NCBI RefSeq assembly: GCF_017815135.1 | Contig: NZ_JAGJCF010000002.1 | Coordinates: 372,001 to 436,000 of the forward strand | Direction of reading: 5' to 3' | DNA: 64,000 bases | Source of the DNA: Jiella mangrovi | Lineage (GTDB): Bacteria > Pseudomonadota > Alphaproteobacteria > Rhizobiales > Rhizobiaceae | Part shown: in pieces, positions 1,022-28,145 of the stretch | Layout of the letters: every line of letters starts with the position of its first letter | How positions within the stretch are numbered: position 1 is the first letter of the stretch | The notes under the pieces: model-generated | The model's database searches: none | The model's input: the letters and a program-made list of their open reading frames with translations, nothing else | What the model was told of the DNA's origin: nothing | Position numbers and translations under genes: made by a program

Positions 1022-1062
1022 GCCGGCGGCCGGGAGCATAGTGCCGGGCGCCGGCCTTTATT
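1022..1062 (+). terminator. probable terminator of serB
   Basis: On the plus strand GCCGGCG pairs with CGCCGGC, followed inward by a G/G mismatch and CCGG/CCGG, with a ten-base loop. A CTTTATT tract follows. It lies 20 bases after the serB stop and touches the stop of the convergent PuhE-CobW gene. Confidence 0.55.
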
Positions 1063-3175
1063 CGGCCGGCAGGATGTTGACGGCCGGCGCATGGACCGAA
1101 AGCGCCGGCTCCTTGCGCGCAGGTTCCGCCACGGTGGCCGAAACCACCTCCCCGGTCAGCGCGGCGAACGCCCGATCGAGCCATGCATTGTCCGGACCTG
1201 CGCCGATCGCCAGGGCTCGGGGGGTCTCGCCGGCCTTCGGCACATGCGCCGCCAGCGAGGCCCGGCCGCCGGCAACGTCAAAGCGCAGCCAGCCGCTCTT
1301 TGTCTCGACGATGCCTTTCATCCGGTCGATCTCGCCGGCTTCGCCAGCGACCACCTCTGCCAGAACCTGTCGCAGGGCATCGGCATCGACCCTGCCGGAG
1401 AAGCACCGGCTCCAGGACGCAAGGCCAAGGCCCGGCTCGTCGTGGTGGTGATGCCCGTGATGATCGTGCCCCTGATGATCATCGTGTGAATGGGCATGGT
1501 GGGCGTGATCATGCCCGTGATGGTGGTCATGATCATGACGTCCGGCATGCCCGTGATCATGAGCATGATGATCATCGAGCCCGTGAGCGTGGTGCTCATG
1601 CTCGTGGCGGGCAGCAACCGCCGGACCGGTCGCTGCATGGTCGTGCCCATGCCCCGTATCTTCGTGCCGGCCATGCTTGCTTGTCTCGTTGGGCGCGTGC
1701 TCGACCACGCGGGCGGTCCCGGCGGCGGCGTGAGCACTTGAACCCTGGCCCCGAGCTTGAGCCTGACGCGGTGCCGTCTCGTCGTCCATCATGTCCCGGG
1801 TCTCGCTCTGCCAGAGCGAGAGTGCGAGCGCTGGATCGACGCCACCCTCGACGATGCCGTAGCGCGCCGTCAGGATCTTGGCCGACGGATTGAGAGCGAG
1901 CAGCGTCTCTCGGACGGTCTCGATCTCGCCTGGCGAGACGAGGTCGGTCTTGTTGAGAATGAAGACCGGGGCAAGCCGTGCCTGAATGCGGAAATAGTCC
2001 GGCATGCGGGCGAAGTCTCTCAGGAACGCTCCGGCGTCGATCACCGTGTAGAGCCGTAGCGCCTTGGTCAGGCCGGCGATTTCAGGCTCGTGCAGGACGC
2101 GCAGAAGCGAGGCGACGTCGGCCACGCCCGACGGCTCGATCAGGACGCGCTGCGGCTTGATCTTGGCGACGACCTCACGCAGCTGCGCCGACAGATCCTT
2201 GCGCAGCGAACAGCAGATGCAGCCGTTCGACAACTCGACGACGTCGGCGCCCTGCCCTTCGAGCAGCGAGCCGTCGATGCCGAGCTCGCCGAAATCGTTG
2301 ACGAGGACGACGGTCTTCACGTTCGGATCGGCCTCCGACAGCATGTGGCGCAGCGTCGTCGTCTTGCCGGCGCCGAGGAAGCCGACGACGATCTCGGCCT
2401 CGAAGGGCGTGCGCTCGCCGCGCGACTTCAAGCCAGGGGACCACAGCGTCGCCGTCGGCATCGGCAGGACCAGCATCCAGTGTTCGAGGATCGCGAGAGC
2501 CATCAGAACGGCCAGGAAGGTGTAGCCGGCGCGCTCGAAGCTGGTCGCCGCTTCGGCCATCGCGGCCGTGACGAGCAATGCGGTGATCACCGTCGAGATC
2601 GTCACGGAGAACGGGAAGAGCAGGTTCATCGACTTCTTGTTGAGGAACCCTTTCAGGAACTCCAGATGCTCGGGCAGGAATTCCTCGTTGAGGTTTCTGA
2701 CGCCGAGAAAGACGTTCAGCTTGGCGCTCTGATGCATCCACCAAAGCACCATGAAGGTCCACATGCCGATCTGGTTCGGCGCGCCCCAGGTGAGCCAGAC
2801 CACCGCCACGGCGGCGACGATGATCGCCAGCTCGTGATAGAGGCTGGTCTGCACCGCATGGACGAAGTGCGGCCAGCCGCGACAGTTCTCCGGGCAAGGC
2901 TGTTTGCGCGAGCCGGTGACGTAGCCCATATAGAAGCTCATCTCCTGCCAGCCCCAGGCCAGAAGCCCCCAGGTGAAGGCGAGATAGGCGCCCGTAATTG
3001 TCGCATCCTGGGCGGATTTCTGCAGCCCGATGAGCGAGATCGCAAAGACGAAGGTCGCCCCGATCATCGAATATTTGAAGGTCTTCTTCGGCAGCCCGTC
3101 GAGATAGATGATCGCGACGGTCGAGGCCCACCAGACGACGAGCGCGAACAGCGCGGGGTAGAGATATTCGGTCAT
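1058..3175 (-). CDS. puhE: PuhE photosynthetic-complex assembly protein fused to a His-rich CobW/COG0523 GTPase
   Basis: A 705-residue open frame with no internal stop joins two proteins. Residues 1-250 are PuhE (DUF3623), with about seven membrane segments (roughly 4-25, 33-53, 59-83, 112-132, 136-156, 188-210, 215-239) and the conserved end LPMPTATLWSP. Residues 260-675 are a complete COG0523 GTPase: Walker A GFLGAGKTT at 265-273, metal motif CICC at 319-322, NKTD at 408-411, a His/Asp-rich metal-binding loop at about 501-578, then a CobW C-terminal domain (about 586-675). Family knowledge: PuhE helps reaction-centre assembly; COG0523 proteins are GTP-dependent metallochaperones. Inference: a membrane-tethered metal chaperone, perhaps serving AcsF (di-iron) or pigment metallation. 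It is the last gene of the bchF-to-puhE run, 302 bases after acsF. The linker is only about 10 residues. A sequencing error fusing two genes cannot be excluded. Confidence 0.9.
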   Translation of the reverse strand: MTEYLYPALFALVVWWASTVAIIYLDGLPKKTFKYSMIGATFVFAISLIGLQKSAQDATITGAYLAFTWGLLAWGWQEMSFYMGYVTGSRKQPCPENCRGWPHFVHAVQTSLYHELAIIVAAVAVVWLTWGAPNQIGMWTFMVLWWMHQSAKLNVFLGVRNLNEEFLPEHLEFLKGFLNKKSMNLLFPFSVTISTVITALLVTAAMAEAATSFERAGYTFLAVLMALAILEHWMLVLPMPTATLWSPGLKSRGERTPFEAEIVVGFLGAGKTTTLRHMLSEADPNVKTVVLVNDFGELGIDGSLLEGQGADVVELSNGCICCSLRKDLSAQLREVVAKIKPQRVLIEPSGVADVASLLRVLHEPEIAGLTKALRLYTVIDAGAFLRDFARMPDYFRIQARLAPVFILNKTDLVSPGEIETVRETLLALNPSAKILTARYGIVEGGVDPALALSLWQSETRDMMDDETAPRQAQARGQGSSAHAAAGTARVVEHAPNETSKHGRHEDTGHGHDHAATGPAVAARHEHEHHAHGLDDHHAHDHGHAGRHDHDHHHGHDHAHHAHSHDDHQGHDHHGHHHHDEPGLGLASWSRCFSGRVDADALRQVLAEVVAGEAGEIDRMKGIVETKSGWLRFDVAGGRASLAAHVPKAGETPRALAIGAGPDNAWLDRAFAALTGEVVSATVAEPARKEPALSVHAPAVNILPAE

Positions 3176-3286: not shown

Positions 3287-3318
3287 CGTCATCCCGGGCT
3301 TGACCCGAAATCCATTCC
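3287..3318 (+). repeat. left arm of 32-base perfect inverted repeat
   Basis: The arm begins CGTCATCCCGGGCTTGACCC and is repeated exactly in inverted orientation at 3395-3426. Sequences of this kind (GTCATCCCGGGCTTGACCCG...) are common dispersed intergenic palindromes in alphaproteobacterial genomes. In RNA the two arms would form a 32-bp stem with a 76-base loop. Confidence 0.85.
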
Positions 3319-3394
3319 TATGACGGCGGCAGGTCCGTCCGCGGCTGGAACCACATTCGACTTGATCGAACCGTCTGAGCAGCTTCGACGATTT

Positions 3395-3426
3395 GGAATG
3401 GATTTCGGGTCAAGCCCGGGATGACG
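3395..3426 (-). repeat. right arm of 32-base perfect inverted repeat
   Basis: Exact reverse complement of 3287-3318. Together the arms bracket 76 bases of unique sequence between acsF and puhE. Confidence 0.85.
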
Positions 3427-3476: not shown

Positions 3477-4553
3477 TCACCACACGGGAACGAGCTTGCT
3501 CTCCTTCGGGATCTCGTTCTTGATCACCGGCAGTGTGTAGAGCCGCGCGAAGGCGAGCGCCGCCGCCGCCTTGCCACGCCAGACCTTCAGCTTGCCGGAA
3601 ACTCCGCCCTGTTGCGCCGCCGCGTCGATGCCGCGGCTGATCTTCAGGAGGCGCTCGAGCCCGGCCTTGAAGCGCGGATCGTCGATATCGATCATCACCG
3701 GGAAGACCTGTCTGGAAATCTCGTTGGTGATGGCGAAGACCTTGAAGCCGTATTCCGACGGGTCGAGGCCGAGGGCCTTGTGGAACTCCGGCCGGGCATG
3801 GTCGCGGACATACATCGTCGCGTAGACCGCCAGCAGGAAGAAGCGGATCCACAGCTTGTTGCGGCCTTCCAGCGTATGCCGCTCGGCGCGCATCAGCAGC
3901 GAAAAGGCCTCGCCGTGGCGGAACTCGTCATTGCACCACTTCTCGAACCACTTGAAGATCGGGTGGATGCGCCGTTCCGGATGCTGTTCCAGATGCCGGA
4001 AGATGGTGATGTAGCGGGCGTAGCCGATCTTCTCGGATAGATAGGTGGCATAGTAGATGAACTTCGGCTGGAAGAAGGTGTACTTCTTCTCCTTGGTCAG
4101 GAAGCCGAGATTGACCCCGATGCCGAATTCTTTCAGCGCGTCGTTGATGAAGCCGGCATGGCGGGCCTCGTCGCGGCTCATATAGGAGAAGAGCTCGCAG
4201 ATATCGGGATTGGATCCGCGCCGCTTCATCTCCTTGTAGAGAACGCAGCCGGAAAATTCCGCCGTCAGCGAGGAGACGAGAAAATCTACGAGCTCCTTGC
4301 GCAGGCCCTCGGGCAGATCGTCGAGCTCGATCTTGTCCCAGTTCTCGTCCCGCTTGAAATGGCCGCGGTTCGGATCGGACTTCATCTCGGCGATCAGCGC
4401 GTCCCACTCGCGGCGAACGCCGGAGACGTCGACCTTGTCCAGCTTGTCGAAATCGGTGGTGTAGAAGCGCGGCGTCAGCAGCGTGTCCTGCTGGGCCGTC
4501 CTGGTCGTCTCGTTCGGCGCTTCGGCAGCGGCGATCCTGGCGTGCGCGTTCAT
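3477..4553 (-). CDS. acsF: aerobic Mg-protoporphyrin IX monomethyl ester cyclase
   Basis: AcsF forms the fifth (E) ring of bacteriochlorophyll, converting Mg-protoporphyrin monomethyl ester to protochlorophyllide with O2. The 358-residue protein has the two di-iron DExRH motifs DEARH (128-132) and DEFRH (209-213), each in the expected helix context ([10 protein letters not shown] and [11 protein letters not shown]). The start chosen is the ATG at 4553, which overlaps the TGA of the upstream orf100 as ATGA, with AAAGGG upstream; the frame stays open upstream but that stretch is the orf100 gene in another frame. The presence of AcsF and the absence of bchE here point to oxygen-dependent pigment synthesis. 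Confidence 0.96.
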
Positions 4554-4852
4554 AGCGTTGCCCTTTCCGAGAATGAGAATTCGCAAAGTTCCATGAATTC
4601 GAAGTCGCCGGTCGCCCGCGTCCAGGCGCGCTCCAGCCATCCGGCCCGGCGGATCGTCGCACGGCGCCTGATACAGGCGGTCTCGCCATAGGGCACTTCC
4701 ACCGGCGCGCCGTGAACGAGAACCTCGTCGCCCGGCTCCACCGTCACGCCGCCGTCGAAGCGCACATGGGCATGGAGGCTGTCGAAGGTGTTGGAAACCT
4801 CGACGGTACAGCCGACGTCTTCGGATCGTTTCTTGAGCAATCGTCCGATCAT
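4550..4852 (-). CDS. conserved small protein of the puh-acsF operon, function unknown
   Basis: 100 residues ([20 protein letters not shown]...), soluble, no signal peptide. The middle reads [22 protein letters not shown], a beta-rich segment. It overlaps puhC (ATGA at 4852-4849) and acsF (ATGA at 4553-4550), so it must be translated coupled to both. A small ORF at this place is a recurrent member of photosynthesis clusters, which argues that it is real and linked to pigment-complex assembly or to the cyclase. I do not recognise a domain. A role as cyclase accessory factor is only a guess from position. Confidence 0.75.
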
Positions 4853-6863: not shown

Positions 6864-8354
6864 CTAGTTCGGTAGATCGGCGAGGCCGAAGCGAGCCGAT
6901 GGTTCGGCCCGCGGTTCGATCCGTCGCGGCTTGACGAGCGGCCCGAGGCTGGCGAGAGCCGCGAAGACGAGAAGAATCTCGACGCAATAGGCGATGGAAT
7001 AGCCGCTTGCGGGGCTGGCAAAGGCCGGGCCGAGCCAGCCGGCATCGGCGAGGCCGCTGACGGCGTCCCGCACGAAGCCGCCGAACGCCACCGCGAGACC
7101 GAGAGCCACCGCCTGCACGGCGCTCCACGCGCCGAGGGCGAGGCCGCCGCGCCCCGAAGTGACCATCGCCATCGCCGCGATCAGCATGGAGACCGCAAAG
7201 AGCCCGCTGCCGAGCCCGATCAGCGCCGTGCCGAGGCAGAACACGACGACGGAATCGAACGGCGCCGACATGATCACGGCCGCAAATCCCGGCAGGCCGA
7301 GCAGCAGCCCGATTGCGGCGACGACATAAGGATTGGCGCCCTTGCCCATCAGCCGCGCGGAGAAGAAATAGCCGACGAGGCTTCCCGCCGCGAACAGCGC
7401 CGTCAGAAGCGTCGTCGCGCCGACGGCCATCTTGAGGACCGCACCGCCATAGGGTTCGAGCAGCACGTCCTGCATGCCGAAGGCGGCCGTGCCGATGGCA
7501 AGGGCGATCAACAGACGATCGAGGCTCTTTTGCTGCCGGAGCGCCCTCAGTGCCGCGCCGAAGGATTCTTTCGGCTTGCCGTCGGGCGCGAGATCCCGGC
7601 GTCGCGGCTCCTGTTTCCAGATCGCGATCATCGTCAGCGCCAGCGTCAGCATGGCTGAGCCCTTCAGGACCTCGATCAGCTTGAGCGGCGAGAAATCGGA
7701 CAGCATCCGCCCGATGACGATCGCCCCGGCCACCATGCCGACCAGGAGCATCGTATAGAGCATCGCAACGACGCGGGGACGCTTCTCCGCCGGAGCGAGA
7801 TCGGTGGCCAGCGCAAGGCCCGCGGTTTGCACCGTATGAAGGCCGAAACCGGTCATCAGGAAGGCGATCGTCATTCCCGCCTCCCCGTAGATCACCGTGC
7901 CGGGGCGCCCCTCGGAAATGATCAGAAGCGAGATCGGCATCAGCGCAAGGCCCCCGAACTGGGCGATCGCGCCAAACCAGATATACGGCACCCGGCGCCA
8001 GCCGAGATAGGAGCGGTGGGTATCGGACTTGTGGCCGATCAGCGCGCGGGCCGGCGCGACGACGAGCGGCAGCGCCAGCGCAACCGCAATGAGCGAGATT
8101 GGGATGCCGAGTTCGACAGCCATGACGCGGTTGAGCGTGCCGCCGAGAAGCACCATCGTGATGCCGACCGAGATCTGGAAGAGCGACAGCCTGAGGATCC
8201 GGCTGAGAGGCAGTTCCACCGTCCCCGCGTCCGCAAACGGCATCAGCGCCATCACGAAGCGCCGCATCTGCTCTCTGGCGGCCACCTCGCGCGCCGACAT
8301 CGGGGCCGATGTGCCGCGGGCCAGAGCGGAGCTTTTTTGGCGGAAAAGCCTCAT
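6864..8354 (-). CDS. lhaA: LhaA, PucC-family light-harvesting complex I assembly protein
   Basis: 496 residues, 12 predicted membrane segments, BCD/PucC branch of the major facilitator superfamily. The conserved block LNRVMAVELGIPISLIAVALALPLVVAPARALIGHKSDTH.. is at about residues 70-125, including the GHKSD loop. LhaA acts in the inner membrane in assembly of the core antenna. The ATG at 8354 overlaps the bchM stop (ATGA). It precedes puhA by 17 bases. A second family member (20976-22319) shares the NRVMVVEL motif but is clearly a different branch. Confidence 0.93.
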   Translation of the reverse strand: MRLFRQKSSALARGTSAPMSAREVAAREQMRRFVMALMPFADAGTVELPLSRILRLSLFQISVGITMVLLGGTLNRVMAVELGIPISLIAVALALPLVVAPARALIGHKSDTHRSYLGWRRVPYIWFGAIAQFGGLALMPISLLIISEGRPGTVIYGEAGMTIAFLMTGFGLHTVQTAGLALATDLAPAEKRPRVVAMLYTMLLVGMVAGAIVIGRMLSDFSPLKLIEVLKGSAMLTLALTMIAIWKQEPRRRDLAPDGKPKESFGAALRALRQQKSLDRLLIALAIGTAAFGMQDVLLEPYGGAVLKMAVGATTLLTALFAAGSLVGYFFSARLMGKGANPYVVAAIGLLLGLPGFAAVIMSAPFDSVVVFCLGTALIGLGSGLFAVSMLIAAMAMVTSGRGGLALGAWSAVQAVALGLAVAFGGFVRDAVSGLADAGWLGPAFASPASGYSIAYCVEILLVFAALASLGPLVKPRRIEPRAEPSARFGLADLPN

Positions 8355-27242: not shown

Positions 27243-28145
27243 TTACAAAACCGGCACGCCGGTCTGCTTGGCCTCGTCCTCGGGCTCGACATGGATCAGC
27301 ACGCGGGCGCCGGTGAACAGCTCCTGCAGCGCATCCTCGATCCGGTCGCAGATCCTGTGGGAGTCAGCGACGGTCATCTTGCCCGGCACCACCAGATGGA
27401 ACTCGATGAACATCGCCCGGCCGGCAAGCCGTGTCCTCAAGTCATGCACTTCCAGCGCGCCTTCGGCGTTGCAGGAGATCGTTTCGCGCACCTTCGCTTC
27501 GGAATCGGTGTCGATCGCCTCGTCCATCAGGCCGGAAAGCGAACTGGTGACGACGCGTGCGCCCTCCCAGAGAATATTCAGGGCGACGACAGCGGCCAGC
27601 AGTGGATCGAGGATCGTCCAGCCGGTCAGCGTCGCGACGACGAGGCCGAAGACGACGCCTGTCGAGGTGACGACGTCGGTCATGATATGCCGTCCGTCGG
27701 CAGCGATGGCCGGCGAGCGGTGCCCCCTTCCGAAGCGGATGAGATAGACCGCCCAGACGGCGTTGATGACCGTCGCCACGCCGCTGATGAGAAGCCCCTC
27801 GACCGGCGCGTCGATGGCGCGCGGCTCGAGATAGGCGCCCCAGGCCTCTCGAAGGATCAGGAGCGCCGCCAAGACGATCAGGACGCCCTCGACGACGGCG
27901 GAAAAATACTCCGCCTTGGTGTGGCCGAAGGGATGGTCGTTGTCGGCCGGCTTGTAGCTGACCGTCACGGCCCACAAGGCGATTAGCCCGGCGACGACGT
28001 TGACGATCGATTCCAAGGCGTCCGAAAACAGCGCCACCGAGCCGGTCAGGATATAGGCGACGTATTTGATCGCGAGCACGACGAGCGCGATCACGACGCT
28101 CGCGGCCGCTACGCGCTTGGCGATCGGGGCATTGGCTTCAGGCAT
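27243..28145 (-). CDS. cation diffusion facilitator (Zn2+/Fe2+/Mn2+-type exporter)
   Basis: 300 residues, six membrane segments in the first 200 and a cytoplasmic metal-binding domain at the end. Metal-site residues: SDALES in helix 2 (about 42-47), PFGHTKAE in the loop after it, and HIMTDVVTS in helix 5 (about 158-166). The C-terminal domain has FIEFHLVVPGKMTVADSHRICDRIEDAL. Helix 2 has the DxxxD-like SDALES where zinc exporters of the HxxxD class have His, so iron or manganese is a fair alternative; this is inference. Between leuL and trpEG, same strand, 23 bases from the trpEG stop. Confidence 0.9.
   Translation of the reverse strand: MPEANAPIAKRVAAASVVIALVVLAIKYVAYILTGSVALFSDALESIVNVVAGLIALWAVTVSYKPADNDHPFGHTKAEYFSAVVEGVLIVLAALLILREAWGAYLEPRAIDAPVEGLLISGVATVINAVWAVYLIRFGRGHRSPAIAADGRHIMTDVVTSTGVVFGLVVATLTGWTILDPLLAAVVALNILWEGARVVTSSLSGLMDEAIDTDSEAKVRETISCNAEGALEVHDLRTRLAGRAMFIEFHLVVPGKMTVADSHRICDRIEDALQELFTGARVLIHVEPEDEAKQTGVPVL

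Follow-up and report, generated by a model that had tools for sequence, protein, structure and literature searches.

Why does puhE, a gene widespread in photosynthesis gene clusters whose product is biochemically blank, run on in the same frame into a complete CobW-type GTPase? The gene that raises this question lies in a 64,000-nucleotide stretch of the Jiella mangrovi genome (NCBI RefSeq assembly GCF_017815135.1, contig NZ_JAGJCF010000002.1, positions 372,001 to 436,000; hereafter the window, within which positions are counted). An initial annotation had read a single open frame for PuhE and CobW and had omitted that it runs on the minus strand; Pfam and NCBIfam scans bear the frame out. DUF3623 (PF12291) covers residues 1-253 (E 9.7e-108, 359.7 bits against a cut-off of 27), cobW (PF02492) covers residues 262-435 (E 4.1e-42, 144.2 bits; cut-off 20.7), and the PuhE part passes TIGR03055 (316.9 bits; cut-off 164.05). 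CobW_C (PF07683) escaped the Pfam scan of the full-length protein and was detected at 33.5 bits (cut-off 22) when the C-terminal piece was scanned alone. The Walker A, CICC and NKTD motifs appeared in the alignment exactly where they had first been placed, and the expected His/Asp-rich stretch and C-domain are also present, 36 His falling within residues 441-580 (Table 1). The PuhE-CobW fusion is a genuine single chain, in frame, and its architecture is a new combination of two known families. We found no description of it in the open-licence literature searched, and it may be described elsewhere; the papers retrieved for PuhE together with CobW deal, judging by their titles, with other topics, and the text of Haas 2009 (PMC2770081) contains none of the terms photosynth, fused, fusion, chlorophyll or transmembrane.

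The complete fusion as modelled by AlphaFold2 (mean predicted local distance difference test score, pLDDT, 72.0; predicted template modelling score, pTM, 0.55) comprises seven long helices, as had been claimed for PuhE, then a GTPase of Rossmann-like fold and a terminal part resembling CobW_C; confidence is low over the His-rich stretch, and at this pTM the placement of the PuhE half relative to the GTPase half is not to be trusted. The PuhE domain was modelled at a mean pLDDT of 79.7 and a pTM of 0.80. Membrane sides of the PuhE loops were assigned by hand, and the count of lysine and arginine agrees with them, averaging 10.0 on the predicted cytoplasmic loops against 1.1 on the other side over 48 fused PuhE domains. 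Predicted topology and charge therefore support a location of both the CobW half and the C94-x3-C98-x4-H103-x2-H106 loop of PuhE (CCHH below) on the cytoplasmic face of the membrane.

Table 1. The puhE-cobW fusion gene, its parts and its upstream neighbour, with positions in the window and residues of the product
Feature	Position	Strand	Basis
puhE-cobW fusion gene, 705 residues, ATG start	1058..3175	-	open reading frame, Pfam and NCBIfam scans; architecture shared with relatives
PuhE (DUF3623) domain, residues 1-250, seven predicted membrane helices	2426..3175	-	profiles, AlphaFold2 model
C-x3-C-x4-H-x2-H, residues 94-106, predicted cytoplasmic loop linking helices 3 and 4	2858..2896	-	domain alignment; side from positive-inside count
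Linker, residues 246-261, length near-constant across 45 aligned fusions	2393..2440	-	alignment
Walker A GFLGAGKTT, residues 265-273	2357..2383	-	alignment
CICC, COG0523 metal-binding motif (by sequence), residues 319-322	2210..2221	-	alignment
NKTD guanine-specificity motif, residues 408-411	1943..1954	-	alignment
His/Asp-rich low-complexity loop, residues 501-580	1436..1675	-	alignment; pLDDT <50 over 469-581
CobW_C domain, residues ~586-674	1154..1420	-	Pfam PF07683 E 3.9e-8; strands and helices in model
acsF, upstream neighbour, outside the fusion	3477..4640	-	TIGR02029 502.3 bits against cut-off 192.5

The same join recurs in relatives and is thus no sequencing error. A scan of genome contigs, which targets close relatives so that its proportions are no frequencies, returned 50 loci, 44 of them with PuhE and CobW in one frame and 43 of these unbroken; the remainder were three loci with PuhE and no in-frame CobW GTPase (L078, L080, and L079, which is cut by a contig end) and three with CobW only. 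Contig ends cut three of the fused loci (L071, L073, L077), and the single exception to the intact frame, Jiella pelagia HL-NP1 (L056), is broken in the GTPase. The genome of this strain is listed as complete, and its frame shift (frame 5950 on) reflects either real decay or a sequencing error. Carriers of the fusion are found in the Jiella/Aurantimonas/Fulvimarina group, Lichenibacterium, Acidiphilium, Acidocella and their relatives, and Kouleothrix of the Chloroflexota. In genome samples that overlap one another, the fusion was found in 3 of the 27 genomes with PuhE over the cut-off in the class (385 genomes), in 2 of 30 in the phylum (398 genomes), and in 14 of 51 in the family of genome G434 (150 genomes, including the KSS8 genome named Acetobacteraceae), where 30 were unfused, four had PuhE followed by CobW_C, one was cut by a contig end inside Walker A and two were unclassified. 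The window's own family (101 genomes) held at least five fused and at least six unfused cases. Two genomes with partial PuhE (G555, G547) were left out of the fetched loci. The window's genome (4.9 Mb) also encodes free CobW-type proteins. In another genome of the genus (G020), PuhE is identical to the one of Jiella flava (L008, L041).

Both halves of the fusion are under purifying selection. The ratio of non-synonymous to synonymous substitution rates (dN/dS) was 0.031-0.097 for the GTPase in 11 hand-picked pairs with intact CxCC, and 0.038-0.127 for PuhE in the 10 of these pairs that were unsaturated. Among the 45 aligned fusions (L056, L071, L118, L077 and L073 excluded), the Walker A form and NKxD are intact in all and CxCC in 42. 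As to the possibility, raised at the outset, that CobW is made separately, an in-frame ATG 26 codons before Walker A, within the end of PuhE, is present in 16 of 49 junctions, nearly all from the Jiella/Aurantimonas/Fulvimarina group. None of these 16 ATGs has a Shine-Dalgarno-like match by pattern search, however, and a start with such a match no more than 20 codons before Walker A occurs in only 4 of the 49. The window's own junction has no ATG between M239 and M278, and so none from the PuhE end to Walker A; residues 240-264 contain neither ATG nor GTG, and a TTG is present at L249. A separate puhE-cobW pair was also sought, and no cobW frame was found in the examined flanks of unfused puhE genes.

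The history of the fusion was read from trees with Shimodaira-Hasegawa-like approximate likelihood-ratio (SH-aLRT) support, the one for PuhE being a quick IQ-TREE run without bootstraps. The PuhE tree and the motif counts given below omit L073, which has only 110 PuhE residues, and identical copies were merged (16 groups). All 48 distinct fused PuhE domains fall into one clade of 58 rows (SH-aLRT 95), which also includes seven unfused rows, two that end at contig ends and one PuhE+CobW_C row; these ten are best read as later losses. The fused GTPases likewise form a single clade, whether compared with 29 or with 57 free COG0523 proteins (SH-aLRT 100 in both trees), on a stem of length 3.39 in the 57-protein tree. 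One of the 57 free rows, L189, is a wrong-frame pick with 13% of its columns filled, and the 29-row tree, which lacks it, gives the same split. A profile of the fused GTPases scored 490 bits against the window, 280 against the first part of another fusion and 196 against the best free relatives in the class. The simplest history would therefore have the GTPase half arise once, long ago, and then be passed down vertically, with losses along the way and a probable transfer to Kouleothrix. PuhE+CobW_C rows are also found in two places outside the fusion clade (L135 and L138; L143 and L147), so the attachment of CobW may be older than the clade or may have moved more than once. Altogether five PuhE proteins (the above four and L080) have no GTPase and finish with CobW_C behind a linker that is either His-rich or short; of two such tails checked with Pfam, that of L138 scored 34.5 bits (over the cut-off of 22) and that of L147 14.7 (under it). 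Because CobW_C has been kept repeatedly in the absence of the GTPase, this suggests that it can dock by itself, whether on PuhE or on some partner.

Compared with ordinary PuhE (TIGR03055, PF12291), the fusion retains the whole domain, its seven helices and its position in the photosynthesis gene cluster, following acsF, but carries a COG0523 protein instead of the C-terminal tail, and all fused members possess the CCHH loop together with W146-x-H148. With the COG0523/CobW group of G3E GTPases, in which Escherichia coli YjiA (1nij, 4ixm, 4ixn) is the nearest solved structure, the second half shares Walker A, NKxD, CobW_C and CxCC, the last being the hallmark of the COG0523 family (PMC9164220). 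The best PDB fold matches of the whole model were three YjiA entries (among them the zinc-bound 4ixn and 4ixm, E 2e-11 and 5e-11), and a profile match gave E 4.1e-27. Unlike the free proteins, the fused GTPase is joined to a membrane protein and stands in its own clade on a long stem; in the V-N-E/D-F motif all 41 fused rows have Asp, whereas 26 of the 29 free proteins have NE, and Glu37 of YjiA, which was changed together with two Cys in 4ixn, aligns with V292 of the fusion. The best NCBIfam matches of the GTPase part were two equivalogs, and neither can name it: the zinc metallochaperone ZigA (NF038288) scored 96.9 bits against a cut-off of 600, and CobW of cobalamin synthesis (TIGR02475) 91.5 against 332.1. 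The YjiA equivalog (PRK11537, NF008578) failed likewise, with 79.7 bits against 361. A precedent in principle is IcmF, in which the G3E GTPase chaperone MeaB is covalently joined to its mutase client (PMC9164220), although IcmF belongs to another G3E subfamily, handles cobalamin instead of a metal ion and is a soluble enzyme.

In 117 PuhE domains, E78, E115 and E231 are invariant, H114 is present in 115 and H232 in 116; these residues lie in helices 3, 4 and 7. What sets fused domains apart from unfused ones lies in the predicted cytoplasmic loop and helix 5, where seven further residues, C94, C98, H103, H106, W146, H148 and Q149, are present in all 48 fused PuhE domains. Over 139 domains (the 117 plus 22 further unfused ones), CCHH was found in 48 of 48 fused, 2 of 2 contig-end and 13 of 84 unfused domains and in none of the five with CobW_C only. 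H148, which sits in helix 5 towards its cytoplasmic end, is present in all 48 fused against 7 of the 84 unfused domains. In L080, which lies in the fusion clade and has lost its GTPase, CCRY replaces CCHH.

We propose, with a probability of about 0.4, that the fusion is a membrane-anchored metallochaperone joined to its client, PuhE, and that the metal is most likely zinc. The COG0523 GTPase would bind a transition metal at CICC, assisted in most members by the His-rich loop, and would release it under the control of GTP binding or hydrolysis. The linker would keep the GTPase at the cytoplasmic face, near the CCHH loop and H148, and a putative acceptor site in PuhE would draw also on E78, H114-E115 and E231-H232. 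Metal passed to this site would yield a metallated PuhE, which would then perform its role in modulating bacteriochlorophyll production. PuhE is reportedly a modulator of that production, as the title of Aklujkar 2005 puts it. From the sequence we infer the identity of the metal, its transfer, the role of PuhE as client and the effect on pigment synthesis alike. Zinc is preferred over iron because the zinc entries of YjiA are the best fold matches, and because of the His-rich loop, the Cys2His2 loop, one neighbouring ZIP gene and the presence of the fusion in Acidiphilium rubrum. The metal carrier tethered in the membrane that the initial annotation envisaged thus stands as far as a full CobW GTPase, covalent and in frame, conserved across genera and phyla, under purifying selection and, by predicted topology, on the cytoplasmic face, is concerned, while its argument from AcsF is weak. 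The fusion, the Cys2His2 loop and the near-universal Glu and His residues offer a first concrete hypothesis for the chemistry of PuhE, namely metal handling or binding, and suggest that metal handling belongs to the making of the photosynthetic apparatus.

Several observations weigh against this proposal. Most PuhE domains (84 of 139) are unfused, so PuhE can work without a fused CobW. CCHH is found in unfused rows both inside the fusion clade (L011, L012, L130, L142, L148, L161) and outside it (L013, L091, L128, L129, L139, L151, L154), and the loop is therefore probably older than the fusion. The supported branches of the tree offer two independent contrasts between CCHH and fusion. Both point the expected way, a number that cannot reach 0.05 in a sign test; the raw counts stand, but the link is largely that of one clade and may reflect descent. 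Metal and GTP binding of the fusion are predictions from motifs, and the CxCC motif has been lost with the domain retained in L074, L076 and L145. His-richness of the loop appears not to be essential, since 6 of the 45 aligned fusions (L046, L062, L064, L074, L076, L145) have only 0-2 His there, four of them 0 or 1 and the other two 1 or 2; the lack of a His-rich loop in some members speaks against zinc in particular. So do the COG0523 proteins that also serve iron and cobalt (PMC9164220), and production of zinc-bacteriochlorophyll is not known for most carriers. The neighbouring ZIP gene is confined to one of the fetched loci, the Thiodictyon metagenome-assembled genome (MAG) contig (L073). 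It starts 28 bases after the fusion frame, and it matches ZupT at 57.6 bits, well under the cut-off of 252. "Candidatus Thiodictyon syntrophicum" has an unfused PuhE, and the MAG contig may for this reason be mis-binned.

Somewhat unlikely, in our judgement, is that the GTPase is a sensor, which reports the status of a metal such as zinc and alters the modulation of bacteriochlorophyll synthesis by PuhE without any transfer. The occurrence of CobW_C alone on PuhE in 5 of 139 domains would suit such a docking or regulatory module, as would L074/L076, where constraint persists in the C-domain (dN/dS 0.18) and in PuhE (0.16) but has relaxed in the GTPase (0.39). Nevertheless, the strong constraint on CICC, Walker A and NKxD fits a carrier equally well, and the CCHH loop hints at an acceptor.

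A tether for local metal handling, which would supply or exclude zinc where bacteriochlorophyll is made or inserted and would feed zinc-bacteriochlorophyll in Acidiphilium, is in our view unlikely. It is attractive in that the fusion is intact in Acidiphilium rubrum ATCC 35905 (L061) and two other Acidiphilium loci; zinc-bacteriochlorophyll was discovered in this species, and the route of zinc into it is uncertain (PMC12654162), a question for which the fusion provides a gene target. The fusion moreover adjoins bchI in one Ferrovum-labelled MAG and bchP in Kouleothrix. Against this, the fusion is not confined to acidophiles, and for the many carriers outside the known makers of the zinc pigment we found no pigment data. 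A bolder combination, in which PuhE is a membrane metalloprotein equipped with a zinc chaperone gated by GTP, and zinc is handled right where bacteriochlorophyll is made and inserted, supplying the zinc of zinc-bacteriochlorophyll in Acidiphilium and setting or guarding the metal identity of the pigment or of the cytoplasmic Cys2His2 site of PuhE in other lineages, we regard as a long shot.

It is distinctly unlikely that AcsF, the di-iron cyclase, receives its iron (or some other metal) from the chaperone, with PuhE as a membrane anchor only. AcsF is encoded in 45 of the 47 genomes searched (including the unfused or partial L078 and L080), and acsF adjoins the fusion in the window and in most Aurantimonadaceae and Acetobacteraceae loci whose contig reaches it. 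This adjacency had been offered as a clue to AcsF maturation, but it is uninformative on the fusion because unfused puhE normally follows acsF as well (PMC3176799). The fusion also sits away from acsF in Lichenibacterium and Kouleothrix. AcsF was not found in the remaining two genomes, the drafts of Kouleothrix aurantiaca COM-B and the Thiodictyon MAG; both match BchE, with COM-B alone passing the cut-off. Since AcsF is present in the other Kouleothrix MAG, these absences may reflect draft incompleteness. AcsF maturation as a general role is thus not supported as specific, and the evidence as a whole points rather to PuhE itself or to the pigment pathway as the client. Lastly, an assembly artefact, a pseudogene or two proteins from an internal start is scarcely credible: the one frame break and the decayed GTPases of L074, L076 and L145 are outweighed by the identical join in genomes from many projects, the low dN/dS of both halves and the start-codon survey.

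In the window the fusion gene is the last of a minus-strand row, bchF-bchN-bchB-bchH-bchL-bchM-lhaA-puhA-puhB-puhC-acsF-puhE. No NCBIfam model matched the frame at 6864-8354, which is called lhaA from its position and from the matching PUCC gene in L077. In Lichenibacterium no homologue of the window's acsF or puh genes was found within 6 kb of the fusion, and acsF is on another contig. The Kouleothrix contig carries pufM (best match to the L/M fusion model), pufC, PUCC, bchG and bchP followed by the fusion, and by this gene content is like those of phototrophic Chloroflexota. Phototrophs of that phylum are expected to lack the reaction-centre H subunit (RC-H). Consistently, puhA had no match in either Kouleothrix genome (L051, L077), and the fusion, if it works there, works without RC-H. 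The frame after the fusion in several Acetobacteraceae loci is, by its motifs, a putative 5-aminolevulinate synthase. The MAG G5_19 holds two different full fusions (L058, L059), as a second copy or through a mixed bin, one in a puh-acsF row and the other on an 8.7 kb contig without homologues of the window's puh genes or acsF.

A frame of 100 residues (4550-4852, minus strand) lies between puhC and acsF and overlaps the listed acsF start; its place is kept in most fusion loci, and it had no Pfam match at E <= 0.1. The gap between acsF and the fusion contains at 3287-3425 an inverted repeat with arms of ~31 bases, whose RNA fold is predicted at -95.3 kcal/mol (z -10.4). Across the genome, 24 sites match the arm with three or fewer mismatches, often as facing pairs ~100-140 bases apart; the repeat is a dispersed palindromic element and could uncouple acsF from puhE. 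Elsewhere in the window, 27243-28145 on the minus strand encodes a cation diffusion facilitator (CDF) efflux transporter over the TIGR01297 cut-off, whose best match is the manganese efflux protein MntE at 437.7 bits, under the cut-off of 500.
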